Source: Acidobacteriota bacterium (GTDB lineage: Bacteria; Acidobacteriota; Terriglobia; Terriglobales; Acidobacteriaceae). From it: 64,000 nucleotides of DNA. A model generated the notes under the pieces. That model saw only the letters and a list, made by a program, of their open reading frames with translations, was not told the DNA's origin and made no database searches. The stretch covers positions 1 to 64,000 of the forward strand of contig JAJXZT010000042.1 of assembly GCA_021779935.1 (NCBI GenBank), in the 5' to 3' direction. The position numbers and the translations under genes are program-made. Numbering within the stretch: position 1 is the first letter of the stretch; each line of letters starts with the position of its first letter. Positions 552 to 20,125 of this stretch are shown here, in pieces.

Positions 552-1037
552 CTATTGTTTGAGGTGAATGATATTCAGTGTAATGATTTTCATCTTTCCA
601 TCCGGCTGCTTCTGAAACCACACCCTCCCACGGGCCGCCATAACACCTTGTCCATTCCCGAACAGACAATCCGATGACTGATCCAAAATCGCCTGTCGTG
701 CGCTAGGCGTGATAATCGATGCGTATTTCCGGGTCATCTCTGCGGGGGTTCTAATCTCGAATGTGCCCGCACCGTATACCTTCAGAGGATATTGAACAAG
801 AGCTGCAAAGCCCTTCTTATCGTTCTCTTTGACGACATGCTGGAGGGCAAGAAAGAATGTCTTGGCTTCGACTGCAAACTCGGGCCCCCATGCATCTGCG
901 ACTGTACTGTTGGGACACGCCGACGGAGATGCAGTTTGTGCCATGGAATTGGCATCGAATAGTCCACCTAAAAATGCCAAAAGAACGACTGCACTGACCA
1001 GTGTAGTCGCCTTCCGGAATGCATTACTGATGTGCAT
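552..1037 (-). CDS. secreted protein, candidate immunity to the lysozyme RHS tip
   Basis: Predicted 161-residue exported protein. The ATG at 1037 lies inside the last codons of the RHS-lysozyme gene, a 14-nt overlap that implies translational coupling. Residues about 1-34 form a signal peptide (basic N-region, long hydrophobic stretch, MAQTA near the cleavage site). The mature part has two cysteines (PSACPNS, SSDCLF) that could form a disulfide. I recognise no family. Position, size and periplasmic location fit an immunity protein protecting peptidoglycan from the upstream GH24 tip; this is inference. Longer starts up to 1163 are possible but would overlap the toxin more and lack the signal peptide at the N-terminus. 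Confidence 0.65.
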   Translation of the reverse strand: MHISNAFRKATTLVSAVVLLAFLGGLFDANSMAQTASPSACPNSTVADAWGPEFAVEAKTFFLALQHVVKENDKKGFAALVQYPLKVYGAGTFEIRTPAEMTRKYASIITPSARQAILDQSSDCLFGNGQGVMAARGRVWFQKQPDGKMKIITLNIIHLKQ

Positions 1038-2409
1038 AGCAGGCACTTGCGTATACTCCGTTCGAAAACATATTGGCCTCATTGGCCCTCCTGAATGGCA
1101 TGCCTGGCCCTCCAGCACTGAGAGAGCGGATGTCACCTGGCACGGCGACCGTATTCCCCGCACTCAAGTCTCGCCACACATCGTGCGTTTGCAATCGCCC
1201 CATCCCCATATTGAAGGTCAAGCTAAACATCGCATCATATTGCGACTGGGTTAGCGGCACGCTAAGGGCGTTGTTAAGCGCGGTCGCTGCGGAATTGGAA
1301 TCAATGGCAAATTGCGCCAATGCGGCTGGTCCAGTAACGCTCATGGCATTATCTGCGGCAGTACATGGACCGTAGTGCAACAGGTGCCCGTAGCCTATCG
1401 TGCAATTTCCTCGCGAGTCTGGATAAGCTGTCGGACTAAAACCTTCGCAATTGGCCACAAATCTCAGTCCTGCGTTACTTGGGGCCTGCCTTCCTCCTCT
1501 GCCTCCACCGCCGAACCTGATTGGCGGAAGAGAGGGAAGTAGTAGGCTGAGGTCAATTCCCGGGATTGCCTCCGGACAAATCTGGACACCCGCCTGAAGT
1601 CCGGCACCCCACTGACCCTTACCTGAACTTGGGTAAATTGTGACACAGTCTGTTGGTACCGTCTCATATAACCCCAGCGGATCTACAAACGACATCGGCA
1701 TGTTGTTGACATACGCATACCGGTTCCAGCTCTGCGGGTTCGCGGGATTAACTGCTGCCAGTCCTGCCGGGTCGGGACTGATCCAGCGTCCCTGCACGGA
1801 CGACTGCTCGCGGTAGAGGAAGTCGTAGAGGCCGGAGGCTGTGTCCTGGTTCTGGCCGGTGAAAGAGAGGTCCGAGACATTGGGAGGATACTGGTTGTAG
1901 GGTTCGCCGTACGGCGCGTACGAAACGTCGGAATACACAGTCTGACTTGTGGTCGAGGCCAAACGCGAACTCCCCAGCCAATCGGCGTGGCGATAGTAAT
2001 CCAATCCAGCCGAGTTATACACCGCAACGGCCCCGGCAGGTAACGCCACGAAAGCCTTGCTCAGCGTCGTCCCGTTCATCAGCGCGAACTTGCTGCCGTC
2101 CAGACCGTAGACGACCTGCGTATGGGTGCTACCAGTCGTCTGTTCCACGGCGCGGTCCAGAGCGTCGTACGTGATGGTCGTGCTGTCCACCGTGGTCGAG
2201 TTTCCATCCGCGTCCCAGGCATAGGTGTGCGCGCCATCGCTGGTCAGGTTGCCGTCGGCGTCGTAACTGATCGTCGCTCCCGGCAGGCTGGAACTTTGGT
2301 TGGTCGTGGAGGAATTGTTTCGCGCAGGGCCGACGGCTGGATGTTCGCATAGAAGCATCATGGCTGAAGTCAAGAGCCGTATCGATGGGACTACCGGAGG
2401 ACGTGCCAC
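1024..2409 (-). CDS. orphan RHS C-terminal cassette with GH24 (T4-type) lysozyme tip
   Basis: The frame encodes 461 residues, but the GTG at 2409 is arbitrary: only the end of an RHS core is present. Residues 48-247 carry RHS repeats and the core terminus (RHADWLG, YDFLYREQSS, GRWISPDP, ending FVDPLGL at 242-247). A variable stretch and the linker GGGGRGGRQAPSN (about 300-312) follow, then a lysozyme domain at 314-461. E322, D331 and T337 reproduce the E-x8-D-x5-T catalytic spacing of T4 lysozyme, with TIGYGH and MPFRRANEANMF matching GH24. The tip should cleave peptidoglycan. Lacking a full core and secretion N-terminus, it is probably a displaced cassette that acts only after recombination with a full-length rhs gene elsewhere. 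Confidence 0.85.
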   Translation of the reverse strand: MARPPVVPSIRLLTSAMMLLCEHPAVGPARNNSSTTNQSSSLPGATISYDADGNLTSDGAHTYAWDADGNSTTVDSTTITYDALDRAVEQTTGSTHTQVVYGLDGSKFALMNGTTLSKAFVALPAGAVAVYNSAGLDYYRHADWLGSSRLASTTSQTVYSDVSYAPYGEPYNQYPPNVSDLSFTGQNQDTASGLYDFLYREQSSVQGRWISPDPAGLAAVNPANPQSWNRYAYVNNMPMSFVDPLGLYETVPTDCVTIYPSSGKGQWGAGLQAGVQICPEAIPGIDLSLLLPSLPPIRFGGGGRGGRQAPSNAGLRFVANCEGFSPTAYPDSRGNCTIGYGHLLHYGPCTAADNAMSVTGPAALAQFAIDSNSAATALNNALSVPLTQSQYDAMFSLTFNMGMGRLQTHDVWRDLSAGNTVAVPGDIRSLSAGGPGMPFRRANEANMFSNGVYASACYAHQ

Positions 2410-2463
2410 CGGTCGGGTTCAAAACTGTGTCAGATGAGTTTTCGCACGACATCAAAGAACTAC

Positions 2464-2498
2464 CCCGCTCAAGCCAAAATGAAGAAGGCTTGAACGGG
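2464..2498. repeat. 12-bp-stem hairpin before RHS fragment B
   Basis: Arms CCCGCTCAAGCC (2464-2475) and GGCTTGAACGGG (2487-2498) pair with one mismatch around an 11-nt loop. The same outer arms occur at 352-437 with an extra palindrome inside. On the minus strand it immediately precedes RHS fragment B. Confidence 0.65.
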
Positions 2499-2619
2499 CC
2501 ACCGTCAGGTTTTTTCCGGTAACCCGGGCCACCTGCCCATGTTGCTCCTCTTAGATGATCGAGGAACAAACATTTACACAGAAATCAGAACACACTCGGA
2601 AGCAGATACACTGCAGCCG

Positions 2620-2630
2620 TTATTTGGGGC
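2620..2630 (-). repeat. orphan copy of the RHS tip-junction motif
   Basis: On the minus strand this reads GCCCCAAATAA, coding Ala-Pro-Asn-Asn, the same sequence that joins core linker to toxin in fragment C (3569-3579) and, with one change, in fragment B (1475-1485). Here it is 26 nt past the end of the 2657-3124 gene and opens a frame that stops after about 18 codons, so it looks like the stub of another tip. Confidence 0.6.
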
Positions 2631-2656
2631 GAGTAGCGCACAGTGCCGGCGCACGA

Positions 2657-3124
2657 CTATTTACTCGAACTGTCACGTTCAATAGTTGCTCTGGGATTCG
2701 CGGATGCAGGCATCCAAACCGAATTCCCAGCATTATTGCGTAACTGGACACTGAATTCACGCTGATTCTCCCGGTACACATCACCGATGACGACACGACA
2801 TACGTCCCGATAGGCTAAACAAATAGACGGCTTTCCATCCGGATCGGAAAGCAAGCTAATTGTTTGCTTCCCACGAACATCAGTCATTGCGATGCTAACC
2901 ATGCCGTCATCACCGACTTCTATCTTAACTCCCTGTTTCCCGGTCGGATTAATGACAGAAATCGAATGCGCTTGGATAGAGTTGGCAACGATGTCCGCAG
3001 GGTGCTGTGCCGCACTCACGTGAGTGCTTGCAGTACACCAGAACGTAATAGCTGTGGCTGCCAGCAAAAGCAGCAAGAGCCGGTTGGTCCGTTCAAGTCG
3101 CGTGATACGAGTTTCAAAATCCAT
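2657..3124 (-). CDS. membrane-anchored periplasmic protein, candidate immunity to RHS tip C
   Basis: Predicted 155 residues. A short polar N-terminus (MDFETRITRLERTNR) is followed by one hydrophobic segment (about 16-33), then a periplasmic region of about 120 residues with beta-rich repeats (VINPTGKQGVKIEV, VSIAMTDVRGKQTISLL). Two cysteines sit in ICLAYRDVCRV. ATG 3124 is chosen over a TTG at 3139 because GAGGG lies 8 nt upstream. It begins 36 nt after the stop of RHS fragment C on the same strand. No family is recognised; gene order and topology suggest an immunity protein against an effector acting in the periplasm or inner membrane. Confidence 0.6.
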   Translation of the reverse strand: MDFETRITRLERTNRLLLLLLAATAITFWCTASTHVSAAQHPADIVANSIQAHSISVINPTGKQGVKIEVGDDGMVSIAMTDVRGKQTISLLSDPDGKPSICLAYRDVCRVVIGDVYRENQREFSVQLRNNAGNSVWMPASANPRATIERDSSSK

Positions 3125-3159
3125 AACATTCACCCTCAATTCGCCTTCGATTCTCGGTG

Positions 3160-4194
3160 CTACGGGTTAGGACAGGTCATCGTCGACGGCACCTGAAACT
3201 GCATGCCATTCACATTGCCGAGGTCTTGCCCACCTGGAAGCTCAAAGAGCACACGCCCCGGATAACGCTGTATCAAAGCAGCAACCCCCGAAGCTGGACC
3301 CATATTGTCGCTAACTCCGTTGAATACCTGTATATATCCACCATTGCCATTAGGAATGTATCCAGATATTTGAGTTCTGTATTGATTGATATAGGCGTTC
3401 GCTTGCGCGGAAGTCCAAGAGGAGGAACCGGGCGGTAGCCATTGTGAACGGTCAATGGCGGCTGTGCCAGGCGTTTCGGGTACTCCATATGCGCCTGCAC
3501 GATTCGGAGCGCGGGTCGGAAGGTTATTCTCTACGCCATGCGCATTCGTCGTGCATGTTTTCATCGGGTTATTTGGGGCCTTTCTTCCGCCTCTGCCCCC
3601 GCCACCACCGGGCCTAGCTGGCAAATATGGTGCATCCGAGAACCACCATCCACCAAAATCAACGCCGCCGTCGTAGATGCCGGGCGGCCATGGGGACAAA
3701 GGAAGATAAGGAGGAAGGAGAGGTAGCTTAGCAATTAGTCCCAGTGGATCGATCATGCTCAGTGGGTTGTTCCCCACGTATGCATACCGGTTCCAGCTCT
3801 GCGGATTCGCGGGATTGACTGCCGCCAGTCCTGCGGGGTCGGGGCTGATCCAGCGTCCCTGCACCGACGACTGTTCGCGGTAGAGGAAGTCGTAGAGGCC
3901 GGAGGCTGTGTCCTGATTCTGGCCGGTAAAAGAGAGGTCCGAGACATTGGGAGGATACTGGTTGTAGGCCTCGCCGTAGGGCGCGTACGAAACGTCCGAG
4001 TACACGGCTTTGCTTGTGGTCGAGGCCAATCGCGAACTCCCCAGCCAATCGGCGTGGCGGTAGTAATCCAATCCCGAAGAGTTATACACCGCCACGGCCC
4101 CGGCAGGTAAGGCCACGAAAGCCTTACGAGGGTAAGGTAGGGCGTAATTCGAGGTATAGCGATAGGCTATAAGTGGCGCACCCACATCTGCCAA
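3160..4194 (-). CDS. orphan RHS C-terminal cassette with unknown tip (fragment C)
   Basis: The frame is 344 residues, but its TTG start falls in a palindrome, so the true 5' end is missing. Homology to fragment B runs from about 4129 to 3775 (KAFVALPAGAV through RYAYVGNNPLSMIDPLGL, residues 24-153). After the DPLGL cleavage motif comes a Pro-rich stretch and GGGGGRGGRKAPNN (about 196-209), almost the same linker as in fragment B, then a roughly 135-residue tip. The tip has few cysteines and the segments SQWLPPG and GRVLFELPGGQDLGN; I recognise no toxin family. The adjacent membrane-anchored gene suggests a periplasmic target. Probably an unexpressed cassette in its present form. Confidence 0.75.
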   Translation of the reverse strand: MADVGAPLIAYRYTSNYALPYPRKAFVALPAGAVAVYNSSGLDYYRHADWLGSSRLASTTSKAVYSDVSYAPYGEAYNQYPPNVSDLSFTGQNQDTASGLYDFLYREQSSVQGRWISPDPAGLAAVNPANPQSWNRYAYVGNNPLSMIDPLGLIAKLPLLPPYLPLSPWPPGIYDGGVDFGGWWFSDAPYLPARPGGGGGRGGRKAPNNPMKTCTTNAHGVENNLPTRAPNRAGAYGVPETPGTAAIDRSQWLPPGSSSWTSAQANAYINQYRTQISGYIPNGNGGYIQVFNGVSDNMGPASGVAALIQRYPGRVLFELPGGQDLGNVNGMQFQVPSTMTCPNP

Positions 4195-14397: not shown

Positions 14398-16278
14398 CTA
14401 CGTCCAAAAGAGATTGACAATGCGGAAGGCGATGAAGGCGGACACGTAAGCCACGGCCGTCATGTAGGCAAACTGCAGTATCGGCCACTTCCAGCCGTTA
14501 GTTTCGCGCCGCACCACTGCAATTGTCGACATGCATTGCATAGCAAAGGCGAAAAACACCAGCAGAGCGATGGCGCCCGCCGGCGACAGTTCGTGCCGCA
14601 AAACGGTCTGCAGATCCATGGAATGGGATTGAGGGTCAACCCCGTAGAGCGTGCCCAGCGTCGAAATGATCACTTCGCGCGCTGCTATGGAAGTAAGCAA
14701 GCCAACGCCAATTTTCCAGTCAAAACCCAGCGGACGAATCGCGGGTTCGATCGTCTTGCCGACCATTGCCACAACGCTGTCCTGAATGGCCGGCGGCTGG
14801 CCATTGTGCATTGGAAAATTCGTCAACACCCAGAGCAGTATCGAGATCCCGAGGATCACGGTACCTGCCCGGTAGACAAACGCCTTGCAGCGATCCAGAA
14901 GACGCAGGAGTAACGACGACATAGTTGGCCAGCGGTACGGCGGCATCTCCATTACAAACTGCGCATCCTTGCTCTTCAGTACGGACGACTTCAACAGTTT
15001 TGCCGTGAACACCGCCATCAGGAAGCCCAGAACATACAGGCCAAGCATGGCAGCCGCACGCGTACCAAAGAAGACGCCGAGCAACGGGTGATTCGGAATA
15101 AACGCCGCGATGATCATGGTGTAGACCGGTAGCCGCGCTGAGCATGTCATGAACGGCGCGATCAGAATTGTTGCGGTACGGTCACGCTTGTTCTCGATCG
15201 TGCGCGTTGCCATGATCGCCGGAACTGCGCATGCGTAGGCCGAGAGCAACGGGATAAAGGACTTGCCATTGAGCCCGACCCGAGCCATGGTCTTATCGGC
15301 AATAACGGCCGCGCGCGATAGATAGCCGGAATCTTCAAGAATGCCGATCACCAGGAAGAGCAGCAGGATTTGCGGCAGAAATACAAGAACCGCACCGGTT
15401 CCCTTCCACACTCCATTTACCAGCAGAGATTGCACGACGCCATGGGGAAGAACCACGCTCATCCAGACGGCCGAACGGTCCAGCAGAAATTGCAGCCCAT
15501 TTGACAGCGGCTGACCAACCGAGAAAATTGTCTGGAAAACGCCAATCACTACAACGCCGAAAATCACCGGCCCCCAGATGCGATGGAGAAATACGGAATC
15601 AAGCCGCCGAGTCCAGAGCGGCGTCGCAGGGCGATGGTAGTGCGCCTTGGCGCCGACGCGAACGGCCCATTCGCGGCATAACCTTGCATCCTGCACCACA
15701 GGCAGCTCGAGCGGCTCCGGAGCGCGAGCAGCGGAAGACATGAAATTCTGAACCGCGCCCAACCCTTGGCCGCTAACAGCACTCACCAGCGCGACCGGAG
15801 TTCCAAGCTGGCGCGCCATGGAGAGAACGTCGATATGTCCGCCCTGGTTGTGGAGTTCGTCAGCCATGTTGAGCAGGACGAGTGTCGGCAACCCCAGGGC
15901 AATCACCCTTGCAGCCAGCATCAAATGCCGGTTCAGGTTCGTCGAGTCCAGTACGAGGATGATGGCGTCCGGACGCGGAATGCCATCCATATCTCCGTTC
16001 AGAACATCGACAGTCACTTTTTCGTCTTCGGATTTTGGCGTGAGGCTGTAGACGCCGGGGAGATCAATGAGCGCGACTTCCCGGCCACCGTTCATCTTTA
16101 ACACGCCGGTGTGGTGCTCCACGGTAACGCCGGGAAAATTCCCAACTTTCTGCCGCAGTCCGGTGAGCCGGTTGAAGAGCGTGGTCTTGCCGGAGTTGGG
16201 GGGACCAACTACCGCTACGGTTCGATACGCCTGAGCTGTTGCCGCTTCCTGCGGAGTAAGTTCCGAAATTGGGGTCAT
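14398..16278 (-). CDS. feoB: ferrous iron transporter B
   Basis: Predicted 626 residues: an N-terminal GTPase with G1 GPPNSGKTT, the switch segment NFPGVTVE, G3 DLPGVYS and G4 LNMAD, then a linker and a polytopic membrane region with Gate-type repeats (SGYLSRAAVIADKTM, GLNGKSFIPLLSAYACAVPAIMATRTI). It imports Fe2+ across the inner membrane. It is shorter than E. coli FeoB (773), mostly in the linker and C-terminus. ATG 16278 is used; a GTG at 16293, just past the feoA stop, is an alternative. feoA lies directly upstream and shares the Fur-controlled promoter. Confidence 0.95.
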   Translation of the reverse strand: MTPISELTPQEAATAQAYRTVAVVGPPNSGKTTLFNRLTGLRQKVGNFPGVTVEHHTGVLKMNGGREVALIDLPGVYSLTPKSEDEKVTVDVLNGDMDGIPRPDAIILVLDSTNLNRHLMLAARVIALGLPTLVLLNMADELHNQGGHIDVLSMARQLGTPVALVSAVSGQGLGAVQNFMSSAARAPEPLELPVVQDARLCREWAVRVGAKAHYHRPATPLWTRRLDSVFLHRIWGPVIFGVVVIGVFQTIFSVGQPLSNGLQFLLDRSAVWMSVVLPHGVVQSLLVNGVWKGTGAVLVFLPQILLLFLVIGILEDSGYLSRAAVIADKTMARVGLNGKSFIPLLSAYACAVPAIMATRTIENKRDRTATILIAPFMTCSARLPVYTMIIAAFIPNHPLLGVFFGTRAAAMLGLYVLGFLMAVFTAKLLKSSVLKSKDAQFVMEMPPYRWPTMSSLLLRLLDRCKAFVYRAGTVILGISILLWVLTNFPMHNGQPPAIQDSVVAMVGKTIEPAIRPLGFDWKIGVGLLTSIAAREVIISTLGTLYGVDPQSHSMDLQTVLRHELSPAGAIALLVFFAFAMQCMSTIAVVRRETNGWKWPILQFAYMTAVAYVSAFIAFRIVNLFWT

Positions 16279-16294
16279 GGCCGAAACGCTCACT

Positions 16295-16576
16295 TCAATA
16301 AGCCGCCACTGCGACAGGAAGCACGGTAATGAGCTTTGACAATTCCTTGCGCAAAGCCACTTCAGTTCCGTCGACGCGGTAGATTCGCGGATCGCCGCCC
16401 GGACCAGAGTTTGCAACCGTAACTTCCAACCCAGGCACAAAACCAAGGTTCATCAGATATTCGGCCACGTCATGAGAGAGACTGAAATCGTAAAGGATGC
16501 CGCGTTCGCCGACAGCGAGGTCGGCAAGTGCCGCGGATTCTGGAGTGCAATTACCGGATATGAAGTTGAAAATCAT
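16295..16576 (-). CDS. feoA: ferrous iron transport protein A
   Basis: Predicted 93-residue SH3-like FeoA: LADLAVGERGILYDF, YLMNLGFVPGLEVTV and DGTEVALRKELSKLITV are the standard family segments. It is a small cytosolic partner of FeoB. ATG 16576 is preferred; an in-frame TTG at 16582 is possible. Stop and feoB start are 16 nt apart, so the two are co-transcribed. The start codon lies inside a Fur-like palindrome, pointing to repression under iron sufficiency. Confidence 0.92.
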   Translation of the reverse strand: MIFNFISGNCTPESAALADLAVGERGILYDFSLSHDVAEYLMNLGFVPGLEVTVANSGPGGDPRIYRVDGTEVALRKELSKLITVLPVAVAAY

Positions 16577-16582
16577 TTTCAA
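16566..16582 (-). promoter_or_regulatory. Fur-box-like palindrome over the feoA start
   Basis: TTGAAAATCATTTTCAA is a perfect 8-1-8 palindrome. Its central 15 bases match the 7-1-7 Fur consensus TGATAATNATTATCA at 12 of 14 defined positions. It begins about 11 bp past the feo -10 element and covers the feoA ATG, a position suited to blocking transcription. Confidence 0.75.
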
Positions 16583-16826: not shown

Positions 16827-17387
16827 TTATTCCTTCAGTTTTTGGCGCTGGCATGCGGTGACGATCTTGGTCGGATCAATTGCGGCACTGTCTTCTTGCA
16901 TTTCGACGACTTTGCCGGTTTTGTCGATCAGGTACGTAATACGTCGCGCCGCTTTGTACTTGGGGTTATAGATTCCGTATTTCTGTGTGACGGTGCCGCC
17001 AAGGTCGGAGAGCAACGGGAACGTGACTCCGATCTGTTCGGCCCAGGCTTTGTTGGCGAAGGGAGAGTCCATACTCACACCCAGTACCTGGGTGTCGGTG
17101 GCTTCCAGCTTGTCCAGGTTCTGCTGGAACGCCTTCATCTCCTGCGTTCAGCCACCGGTGAAGGCGAAGATATAGAACGCCAGTGCGACGTTCTTCTTCC
17201 CGCGGAAGGAGTGCAATGAGATCTGCTTGCCGCTCTGATCGGTCAGGGTGAAGTCGGGAGCGATGTCTCCGACTTTCACCGTGGGCTCCGGTTGCGCCGG
17301 CTTGCTTTGCGCGAGTGCCGAAGGTCCAACCAGAGCGAACGACAGCAGAAGCACCCCACCCATAAGTGCTACTCGAAGTTTTCGCAT
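16827..17387 (-). CDS. predicted selenocysteine-containing peroxiredoxin (in-frame TGA)
   Basis: Read through a TGA at 17150-17148, the frame gives 186 residues. Residues 1-26 are a signal peptide ([26 protein letters not shown]). The AhpC/TSA fold follows: [30 protein letters not shown], then U80 and [54 protein letters not shown]. The usual active site is F-T-x-x-C-T-x-E; here TGA replaces exactly that peroxidatic Cys, both halves stay in frame and both look conserved. A Cys near the C-terminus (VTACQRQ) could resolve the intermediate. It should reduce peroxides in the periplasm. The alternative is a nonsense mutation. No selA, selB or selC lies in the window. Confidence 0.8.
17123..17152 (-). 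promoter_or_regulatory. candidate bacterial SECIS stem-loop
   Basis: On the minus strand GCTGAACGC (17152-17144, containing the TGA) pairs with GCGTTCCAGC (17132-17123) in a 9-bp stem with one bulged base, closing an 11-nt loop AGGAGATGAAG. A stem-loop at and just after the UGA is what bacterial selenocysteine insertion needs. The loop contains GG, but I cannot show the full SelB-binding geometry. Confidence 0.5.
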
Positions 17388-17658
17388 AATGTGAACCCCA
17401 CGTTCAGCGTGAGAATAGGCCCGTTGAGGCTCCGCGTCAACAAAACGCGCGATTTTTTGACAAATCTGCGACAAAGGGCGGTCCACTGGTGTTCCCTTCT
17501 CGTGGAATGTGCTGCGCACTTTGCACAGTAACCGTTGCGAAAAACACTCGAATGCAAGTACAGTGTCTCCCATCCGTTTCATGGCAGGAAGAGATGGCGT
17601 TGCCCGCACGGAACATCATTTCCGATCGCAACCACGCAGCCGAAAGAGACGAGCCCTC

Positions 17659-18291
17659 GTGCCGAAACGCGAATCCCCGGAAGCAGAAGGTACCGCAACG
17701 ACAGCCGCTCGCGGCACCGGAGAAAAGTATCCGCGCATTCTCGACGCCGCCGTCGCGGTATTCGCCGAGAAGGGCTTTCATTTGGCCCGCGTTGCCGATA
17801 TCGCGTCGCGCGCCGGAGTAGCCGATGGCACCGTATACCTCTACTTCAAGAACAAGGAAGAGATCCTGATGACGGCGATCAACACGGCATTCAACGCATT
17901 TATGACGGATGCGCGCGCCGAGTTGCACCAAATATCTTCCCCGGCAGAGCGACTCCGCCGGCTGGCGAACATGCATCTTCACGCGCTGGGGTCGAACCGG
18001 AATCTCGCCGTCGTTTTCCAGATGGAGCTTCGCCAGAGCACGCGGTTCCTCACAACCTTCTCGCACGAGCATATGGTTGAATATCTCGAGTTGGTGCGCG
18101 ACGCAATCCGCGAAGGCCAGCAAAAAGGGATATTTCGTCCGGAGCTGAACGAGAAGATTGCCGCCAACTGTTTTTTTGGCGCAGTTGATGAAATCGTCAC
18201 ATCGTGGGTACTGGCCGAAGAAGATTATCCTCTGGCCAGCGCCGCCGATGCCGTTGCAAACGTGATCCTGGGTGGTCTGGAAACAAAGTAA
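17659..18291 (+). CDS. TetR-family regulator (fatty-acid type)
   Basis: Predicted 210 residues from GTG 17659; longer in-frame starts exist but extend past normal TetR size. The helix-turn-helix is clear: RILDAAVAVFAEKGFHLARVADIASRAGVADGTVYLYFKNKEEIL (about 25-69). The C-terminal domain is helical and would bind a ligand. It lies 28 bp upstream of an acyl-CoA ligase gene in the same direction, so acyl-CoA-responsive control of fatty acid use is the natural guess. It is divergent from the peroxiredoxin gene. Confidence 0.88.
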   Translation: MPKRESPEAEGTATTAARGTGEKYPRILDAAVAVFAEKGFHLARVADIASRAGVADGTVYLYFKNKEEILMTAINTAFNAFMTDARAELHQISSPAERLRRLANMHLHALGSNRNLAVVFQMELRQSTRFLTTFSHEHMVEYLELVRDAIREGQQKGIFRPELNEKIAANCFFGAVDEIVTSWVLAEEDYPLASAADAVANVILGGLETK

Positions 18292-18319: not shown

Positions 18320-20125
18320 ATGAGCGGTCAAAACTCGAACCCGAAGCCTCGCACGCTGAACGACATCTTTTTCCAGGTCGTGGAGCGCAACGCAACACGC
18401 GTGATGACTCACGAACAGAATGGCTCCTGGGTGTCCATCTCCTCAGCGGATTTCTATAAGCGTGTTGCGGGCACAGCCCGTGCGCTGATCTCGTGGGGCA
18501 TCGGTCGCGGTGACCGCGTGGCCATACTCAGCGAAAACCGGCCCGAGTGGGCCATCGCGGACTTTGCCCTCCTGATGATTGGAGCCGCCGTGGTTCCGAT
18601 CTACGCCACGCTGACTGCCGAGCAGTGCTCCTATTTGCTGCGACACTCCGGGGCGCGAGCCGTCTTCGTTTCGTCGAAGGATCAACTCACGAAAATCGCG
18701 GACATTCGAACGGAAACGACAATCGAGCGAATCATCATGATGGACCGGCCGGATGAGTCCGAACCAACAGTCGCGTTCATGAAGGACATCATGGACTCCG
18801 GTCCGGAGAGCCGCGATGCCGAGCTCGACGCCAACGCCCGGACGGTGACTCGAGACGATCTTGCCACGCTGATTTACACGTCAGGCACCACCGGGACGCC
18901 CAAGGGCGTGATGCTGACGCACGGCAATCTTGCGTCGAACCTGGAAGTCTCGCTTGATGCATTTGACTTCCTTGCCGGCGATATCTCGGTTTCGTTTCTG
19001 CCGCTGTCGCACATCACGGCACGCCACGTGGATTTCGCTCTGTTCTATCGTGGCGTTGCACTTGCTTACTGCCCCTTCATCGAGGAACTGCCGCGCGTGT
19101 TGCAGCAAATCCATCCGACGGTTTTCGTCGCGGTGCCGCGCGTCTACGAGAAGATTTACAACCAGGTGCAGAAGCAGGTGGGGGCAGGATTCAAGCGCAG
19201 GCTCTACAACTGGGCGATTGGCGTCGGCGAGCGCAACATCAGCACGGTGCTCAGCGGAAAGCGGCCGCACAACTTGCGCTGGCAGATTGCGGAACGATTG
19301 TTGTTTTCAAAGGTGATGCACGCCATGGGTGGACGCGTGCGCACGTTTATTTCGGGTGGTGCGCCGCTCGGCAAGGATCTTGGCCTCTGGTACGCGAAGA
19401 TTGGCATCCAGATCAACGAAGGCTACGGCCTCACCGAGACCTCGCCGGTCATCGCCGTCAACAACCCTCACGGCTACAAACTTGGGACGGTCGGAAAGCC
19501 TCTCGACAACCTGCAGGTGCGCATCGCCGACGACGGCGAAATTCTGGTGCGCGGCCCGAACGTCTTCAAGGGTTACTGGAATATGCCGGACGAAACGCGC
19601 GACACATTCGACGGCGAGTGGTTCAAGACGGGCGATATCGGATGCCTCGACGTCGATGGATTCCTCTGCGTCACTGATCGCAAGAAGGATCTCATCAAGA
19701 CCTCAGGCGGCAAGTTCATCGCTCCGCAACCGATTGAGAATTCGTTGAAGGCCAATGCGCTCGTCAGCGAAGCCGCCGTAATTGGCGAGCGGCGTAAATT
19801 TCCGTCAGTAGTCATAGCGCCTGCGTTCAGTCATCTGGAAGAGTGGGCGCGAATACATGGCGTCGGGTTTTCTTCGCATCAGGAGTTGGTATGCAATCCA
19901 CAAGTGCAGGCGCTTTACGAGTCTATCGTCGAGGCCGTCAACCATAACCTTGCGAAGTACGAGAAGCTCAAGAAAGTCCTGGTGATCCCGGAGGAACTGA
20001 GCATTGAAAGCGGAACCCTGACCCCGACGCTCAAACTCCGGCGCCGCAATGTTGAAGCGCGCTACCGGGAGTTGATCGACACACTCTACGTCGAAGATTC
20101 CGCCGGTACCGCGCAGATGAAATGA
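18320..20125 (+). CDS. long-chain fatty acid CoA ligase (AMP-forming)
   Basis: Predicted 601 residues, of the ANL superfamily. ATP-binding motif LIYTSGTTGTPKGVMLTHGNL (about 192-212), INEGYGLTETSPV (about 370-382), EWFKTGDIG and DRKKDLIKTSGGKFIAPQPIEN near the C-terminal domain. It should activate long-chain fatty acids via acyl-adenylates to acyl-CoA at the cytoplasmic face. No clear Shine-Dalgarno sequence is visible. The preceding TetR gene is probably its regulator and co-transcribed. Confidence 0.92.
   Translation: MSGQNSNPKPRTLNDIFFQVVERNATRVMTHEQNGSWVSISSADFYKRVAGTARALISWGIGRGDRVAILSENRPEWAIADFALLMIGAAVVPIYATLTAEQCSYLLRHSGARAVFVSSKDQLTKIADIRTETTIERIIMMDRPDESEPTVAFMKDIMDSGPESRDAELDANARTVTRDDLATLIYTSGTTGTPKGVMLTHGNLASNLEVSLDAFDFLAGDISVSFLPLSHITARHVDFALFYRGVALAYCPFIEELPRVLQQIHPTVFVAVPRVYEKIYNQVQKQVGAGFKRRLYNWAIGVGERNISTVLSGKRPHNLRWQIAERLLFSKVMHAMGGRVRTFISGGAPLGKDLGLWYAKIGIQINEGYGLTETSPVIAVNNPHGYKLGTVGKPLDNLQVRIADDGEILVRGPNVFKGYWNMPDETRDTFDGEWFKTGDIGCLDVDGFLCVTDRKKDLIKTSGGKFIAPQPIENSLKANALVSEAAVIGERRKFPSVVIAPAFSHLEEWARIHGVGFSSHQELVCNPQVQALYESIVEAVNHNLAKYEKLKKVLVIPEELSIESGTLTPTLKLRRRNVEARYRELIDTLYVEDSAGTAQMK

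Follow-up and report, generated by a model that had tools for sequence, protein, structure and literature searches.

The window, that is the whole stretch of 64,000 nucleotides of acidobacterial DNA analysed here, carries on its minus strand a gene for a predicted selenocysteine (Sec)-containing peroxiredoxin. The gene is flanked by feoA and feoB directly downstream and by two divergent genes on the other side. The features of this locus are as follows:

16827..17387, minus strand: gene for the predicted Sec-containing peroxiredoxin, ATG to TAA, 186 aa with the UGA read as Sec80
17148..17150, minus strand: in-frame TGA, predicted Sec80, the peroxidatic residue in FTGG-U-T (from the reading frame and the homologue column)
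17310..17387, minus strand: predicted signal peptide, residues 1-26 (pattern by eye, and hydropathy count in relatives)
17100..17133, minus strand: predicted SECIS hairpin (type 1), stem UUCCAGC/GCUGGAA, 13-nt apical loop AGAACCUGGACAA
16851..16853, minus strand: Cys179, proposed resolving residue, the only Cys besides position 80 and invariant in 77 close loci
14398-16582, minus strand: feoA and feoB, immediately 3' of the peroxiredoxin gene (from the ORF list of the window)
17509..18291, plus strand: TetR-family regulator (YsiA-like C-terminal domain), divergent neighbour, adjacent in 7 of the 26 type 1 loci
18320..20125, plus strand: AMP-binding protein (acyl-CoA synthetase-like), divergent neighbour, adjacent in 17 of the 26 type 1 loci

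Farther away in the window, two minus-strand ORFs at 1024-4194 share a near-identical stretch (...SGLYDFLYREQSSVQGRWISPDPAG...), which we take to resemble the ends of RHS-repeat proteins.

The original prediction, made from the letters of the sequence, placed a TGA between FTGG and TQEMKAFQ in a single frame, and re-reading the reverse strand confirmed this: from 17387 to 16827 one frame runs from ATG to TAA, with the TGA at 17150-17148 as its sole internal stop. The TGA is residue 80 of 186, preceded by FAFTGG and followed by TQEMKAFQ. A gene finder would split the gene, as had also been foreseen: under translation table 11 one ORF stops at 17148 and another, of 103 aa, occupies 17138-16827. 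The Pfam model PF00578 (AhpC-TSA) matched the read-through product across the TGA, over residues 39-162 (E 4.2e-38), and its score of 130.5 bits against a cut-off of 26 identifies an AhpC/TSA domain.

The chance of 106 open codons after the TGA is about 0.023 at the GC content of the window, and the openness of the frame is, taken alone, weak evidence. Pairwise comparisons of loci gave dN/dS values of 0.095-0.180 after the TGA in six of seven pairs, at dS values of 1.2-2.5 that are near saturation; in the seventh pair dS was saturated and the ratio not computable. Because homology spans the TGA and dN/dS is low downstream of it, the open frame is not due to chance. Decay of the 3' half among homologues would have counted against the prediction; none was seen, the TGA occupies the same column, and the substitution ratios indicate that the half of the gene 3' of the TGA is under purifying selection.

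We searched the window protein in 61 genomes, its own and those of 60 relatives, at E<=1e-20. The original prediction had asked which residue, Cys or U, homologues carry at position 80. Both occur: column 80 could be read in all 64 matches, with TGA in 37 and TGC or TGT in 27. In a phylum-wide draw of 396 genomes, with up to 8 candidates scored per genome, every one of the 59 matches at E<=1e-30 includes a TGA; in the 48 whose column 80 was read, that column always holds it. Four more loci from a named collection, the closest named matches and all in acidobacterial MAGs, with E values from tblastn, have TGA as well, although two of them merely duplicate genes found before. When all fetched loci at E<=1e-30 were pooled, whatever their codon, and identical post-TGA DNA was counted once (81 reduced to 77), we obtained 77 close loci, and TGA stands at column 80 in 77 of 77. 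Such identity is seen between L024 and L036, one from a genome of the window's own family (G010) and the other from an acidobacterial MAG. Among the loci read, no Cys form occurs at E<=1e-30, the best Cys row reaching 6.9e-28. The close loci carry a TxxU motif, FTGG-U in the window, with Thr at -3 in 76 of the 77 and Ser in one. The extra stops in rows L092, L094 and L117 sit 5' of the start codon. Six TGA loci weaker than E 1e-30 (L102, L106, L110, L119, L129 and L130) were counted apart; these are less similar acidobacterial TGA peroxiredoxins without a Cys at the C179 column.

On the free quick tree, the U and C labels must change three times. Four of the six weaker loci (L102, L110, L129 and L130) fall with Cys rows, which suggests repeated exchange of Cys and Sec. 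Free quick trees do not recover the 77 close loci as one group, at weak support: AhpE-like rows, both TGA and Cys, come to lie among the 77, and L097, L098, L100 and L103 beside other Cys rows. A tree in which the 77 loci were held together lay 25.5 log-likelihood units above the free search (p-AU 0.81); after removal of four long rows the constrained tree, then with 76 loci, was 13.5 units better (p-AU 0.67). A single clade for the close loci is favoured by these comparisons.

The machinery for Sec decoding, which the original prediction had named as a thing to look for, was found in the host genome, a draft of 4.49 Mb in 72 contigs that is 99% complete. It contains a tRNA-Sec (66.6 bits; called tRNA-SeC(tca) by ARAGORN) and, in family searches, selB (381 bits) and selA (555 bits), together with selD (361 bits), so that all four Sec-decoding genes are present. 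The selD match itself holds one in-frame TGA near its start, and selD is likely a second selenoprotein gene of this genome and as such an internal check on Sec decoding. PF00578 matches 25 places in the host genome; three of them contain an in-frame TGA, in every case at the peroxidatic position. The TGA genes outside the window are:

L018, 1480-2526: selD with in-frame TGA, followed by a predicted hairpin with GGU as its apical loop
L136, G000:C9:101785-102171, plus strand: TGA peroxiredoxin with TPGU-x4-C
L140, G000:C67:154350-154754, minus strand: TGA peroxiredoxin with TPVU

We take L136 to be PrxQ-like and L140 to be AhpE-like. Both share with the window gene the TGA at the peroxidatic column, but differ from it in having no signal peptide by eye, no C-terminal Cys and different post-UGA hairpins. 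With one model for the formate dehydrogenase alpha subunit we found 12 matched stretches in the host genome, none above the cut-off and none with a stop. Because three peroxiredoxins carry a TGA while the formate dehydrogenase stretches hold no stop, the genome content suggests that Sec decoding is repaid here by peroxide defence.

Close loci also tend to occur where selA does. Among the 61 genomes (selA taken as present at E<=1e-50), a close locus was found in 30 of 48 genomes with selA and in 0 of 13 without (Fisher p 5e-5; this test and those below assume independent genomes, which relatives are not). Of the 30 genomes with a close locus, 27 have a tRNA-Sec match at E<=1e-9 (Fisher over the 61 genomes, 7e-4); the three without a match at that threshold, G001, G023 and G044, are 75-90% complete. 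Over the phylum sample, where the lists of loci and of selA were compared by eye, selA is present in 54 of 58 genomes with a close locus and in 198 of 338 others (Fisher p 4e-8). The four genomes with a close locus and no selA match (G196, G279, G319 and G367) are 72-91% complete, in 260-650 contigs. In one relative, at G038:C44:180672-181390, a match to the Sec peroxiredoxin ends about 100 bp from a tRNA-Sec on the opposite strand.

An Rfam scan of the window gave no match at gathering scores. The predicted hairpin of the window gene starts near nucleotide 15 past the UGA; it has a lower stem GGC/GCC, one unpaired G between the stems, and a loop beginning with AG. From the residues after Sec and from the folds, the 77 close loci were sorted post hoc into types 1, 2 and 3 (27, 45 and 5 loci). 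A branch with support 99 separates the 27 rows of type 1, including the window's gene, from all other rows. We compared the folding of codons 4-17 behind the TGA with that of synonymous-codon permutations within each gene. The mean folding z was -2.13 for types 1 and 3 pooled (n=32; 78% at p<=0.05) and -1.22 for type 2 (n=45; 29% at p<=0.05 one by one), against -0.43 for the 27 Cys paralogues (15% at p<=0.05) and -0.31 to +0.52 in three later gene windows over all sets. RNA structure after the TGA thus exceeds the synonymous-codon null, and does not clearly do so in the Cys paralogues or elsewhere in the genes. The window's own fold, over the first 56 nt after the TGA, had a z of -1.50, with 20 of 200 shuffles as stable, which is not significant alone.

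The type 2 hairpin, GGCG-UAUCA-GGC-UGAUA-U-CGCC, closes on a loop of 3 nt of the form G(G/U)N and covaries: 21 two-sided cells were counted, against 6.5 in shuffled alignments, with 0 of 500 as high. Pairing holds in 86.8% of its cells and in 15.5-54.3% in slid controls; sliding by -1 gave 23 two-sided cells, but 37% paired. In L065, L067, L097 and L100, which span two families and include two rows identical at this place, UAU...GAU has become UAC...GGU, so that an Asp-to-Gly change goes together with a synonymous change of the Tyr codon on the opposite side of the stem. Covariation in type 1 is weak because the hairpin core hardly varies: 6 two-sided cells were counted where shuffled alignments gave 3.7, and 51 of 500 shuffles reached that count; the covariation score was 0.092 against 0.071 (13 of 500). 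Sliding type 1 by +1 raised the covariation to 0.147 with 8 two-sided cells, at a lower pairing (59.7 vs 79.3%). In the five type 3 loci the stem is shifted.

The published bacterial SECIS model, as set out in the excerpt of PMC13188914 that describes it, has a loop of 3-9 nt, and the window element with its 13-nt loop lies outside the model in that form. Considering folds within 2 kcal/mol of the MFE and a stem minimum of 4 bp, we found that 2 of 27 type 1 loci, 43 of 45 type 2, 2 of 5 type 3 and 6 of 27 Cys controls agree with the excerpted model. When loops of up to 14 nt were allowed, 19 of 27 type 1 loci and 8 of 27 Cys controls fitted. In the host, the PrxQ-like TGA gene folds into a hairpin with a GUU loop; since this gene and the host's own selD, with its GGU loop, have canonical loops, the same SelB would have to read both these and the long-loop element of the window. 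Two hairpin architectures in one family amount to a natural experiment on what SelB recognises.

Taken together, the machinery, the TGA of the homologues and the selection 3' of it uphold the original reading, and the UGA at codon 80 is almost certainly read as selenocysteine. Three other accounts of the TGA have to be set against this. A pseudogene, or a sequencing or assembly error by which TGC or TGT became TGA in the host genome, would be conceivable from a single genome, the more so as the assembly is a draft in 72 contigs; yet the 77 distinct close loci, which come from many genera and families, all share this TGA, purifying selection continues after it, and its occurrence goes with that of selA, which leaves an error extremely improbable. 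Alternatively, a suppressor or a changed genetic code might put a different amino acid (Trp or Cys) at this codon; the frame would be open in that case as well. We consider this very improbable in a genome with a dedicated tRNA-Sec, SelA, SelB and SelD, at a position that is the peroxidatic Cys of the paralogues, followed by an excess of RNA structure, and with selD also interrupted by an in-frame TGA. Equally improbable, in our view, is that the TGA terminates and that the two halves are separate products with a restart at the ATG at 17138. An ORF from this ATG to 16827 does exist; however, neither half would contain the whole fold, the Pfam match extends over the two, in every one of the 77 close loci the TGA occupies the catalytic column, and the excess folding stability lies just after the TGA and not in the three later gene windows.

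The protein had also been proposed to be secreted. The signal-peptide pattern agrees with this, and export itself is predicted: by eye, residues 1-26 comprise an n-region MRK, a hydrophobic core and an AxA site, ending in ALA. A hydropathy count, for which 3 of the 77 close loci were not scorable, found a hydrophobic stretch upstream of the domain in 26 of 26 type 1, 44 of 44 type 2 and 4 of 4 type 3 loci. From pattern and count together, the enzyme is likely exported to the periplasm. Predicted export is not peculiar to the close loci, because a hydrophobic stretch is also present in 22 of the 23 Cys paralogues that were scorable, as well as in 2 of 3 other TGA peroxiredoxins.

To the original prediction we add that the enzyme probably works with its conserved C-terminal Cys. 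Cys occupies the C179 column in 77 of 77 close loci, in 0 of 27 Cys paralogues and in 0 of 6 other TGA peroxiredoxins, and lies 97-106 residues from Sec across the close loci. It is a conserved second residue of the kind found in 2-Cys-type enzymes with a C-terminal resolving residue. A lone invariant Cys that is specific to the close loci suggests a pair of Sec80 and Cys179, which would probably act via a selenenylsulfide. It may also be that Sec80 is right but that the enzyme is a 1-Sec peroxidase, like the 1-Cys AhpE, with another role for Cys179; this is compatible with Sec decoding and rivals the pair only. The nearest solved relatives are indeed AhpE structures of Mycobacterium tuberculosis (E 3.4e-28), which we take to be a cytosolic 1-Cys enzyme. 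The variable spacing points the same way, and the AlphaFold model (five rows; mean pLDDT 72.6), in which neither residue is resolved, leaves room for this reading: pLDDT is below 50 at mature residues 49-54, with Sec80, and 143-160, with C179. Nevertheless, a sole second Cys kept in all close loci and missing from every Cys paralogue and every other TGA peroxiredoxin speaks against a 1-Sec enzyme, which we consider the less likely of the two.

The Sec80-Cys179 pair gives the following picture. The product would be an exported, periplasmic peroxidase with an AhpC/TSA peroxiredoxin fold, in whose synthesis the ribosome would read UGA codon 80 as Sec by means of tRNA-Sec, SelA, SelD and SelB and the post-UGA hairpin. 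Sec80 would attack H2O2 or an organic or lipid hydroperoxide and become a selenenic acid; Cys179 would then probably resolve this by forming a selenenylsulfide, and a thioredoxin-like donor in the periplasm may reduce the latter. Sec insertion, export, catalysis, the bond between Sec80 and Cys179, and the nature of substrate and reductant are inferred from sequence. The explanation as a whole, an exported Sec80 peroxidase with hairpin-guided decoding of its UGA and resolution by Cys179, appears to us very likely. A wider proposal is more tentative, and we give it somewhat less than an even chance: that the close loci are an obligately Sec-dependent exported lineage across Acidobacteriota, with the Sec80-Cys179 pair, that this lineage disappears, instead of being converted, where Sec decoding is lost, and that its hairpin has been rebuilt between canonical and long-loop forms, the long-loop form being read by a SelB that in the same cells serves canonical elements too.

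The neighbouring genes offer a hint as to the substrate. In 7 of the 26 type 1 loci with upstream sequence, the TetR gene sits between the peroxiredoxin gene and the AMP-binding gene. In the 45 type 2 loci, an AMP-binding gene was found in divergent position in none, with one distant match downstream. As a speculation, the AMP-binding neighbour hints at lipid metabolism and lipid hydroperoxide substrates. A link to ferrous iron through feoA and feoB was rejected, as tblastn at 1e-5 found them in no other locus, over flanks of mostly about 1.5 kb. Since an ordinary ORF list cuts the gene in two and no matching NCBIfam model reaches its cut-off, an exported antioxidant enzyme of many acidobacteria is probably mis-annotated.

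Among known proteins, the closest solved structure is that of AhpE (Rv2238c/MT2298) of M. tuberculosis, which has Cys as its peroxidatic residue and aligns over residues 33-165, so that the alignment stops short of C179. In the same acidobacteria, the Cys peroxiredoxins, a 22-row Cys group in the tree that we presume to be PrxQ/BCP-like, share with the window protein the domain, the Thr/Ser at -3 and a conserved Arg column, but differ in their peroxidatic Cys and in having no Cys at the C179 column (0 of 27). Sixteen NCBIfam models matched the window protein, none at its cut-off; Prx-SUH (NF045827) gave 29.6 bits against 298. In the open PMC literature we found no title on an exported acidobacterial peroxiredoxin of this kind. 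Table 2 of PMC1794560 lists four selenoproteins in three families for Acidobacteria, the families not being named there, and for Occallatibacter riparius, also an acidobacterium, a passage of PMC12013277 counts three known selenoprotein genes without naming them; the window gene may already have been counted in earlier surveys.

TxxU peroxiredoxins (PF00578) are an established bacterial selenoprotein family, according to the sections of PMC13188914 and PMC1794560 that treat them. With PrxU of Eubacterium acidaminophilum, as presented in the same sections, the window protein shares the AhpC/TSA fold and a UGA-encoded TxxU at the peroxidatic position. It scores 74.5 bits with the NCBIfam PrxU model (NF040737), below the cut-off of 270, and has a likely signal peptide and an invariant C-terminal Cys, traits that earlier TxxU peroxiredoxins may also have. 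As judged from its sequence, the gene is a new TxxU selenoperoxiredoxin outside NCBI's PrxU model, the kind of enzyme itself being already known. What makes it worth following is that the close loci include no Cys form, that they keep a candidate C-terminal Cys partner, and that they use two forms of hairpin.
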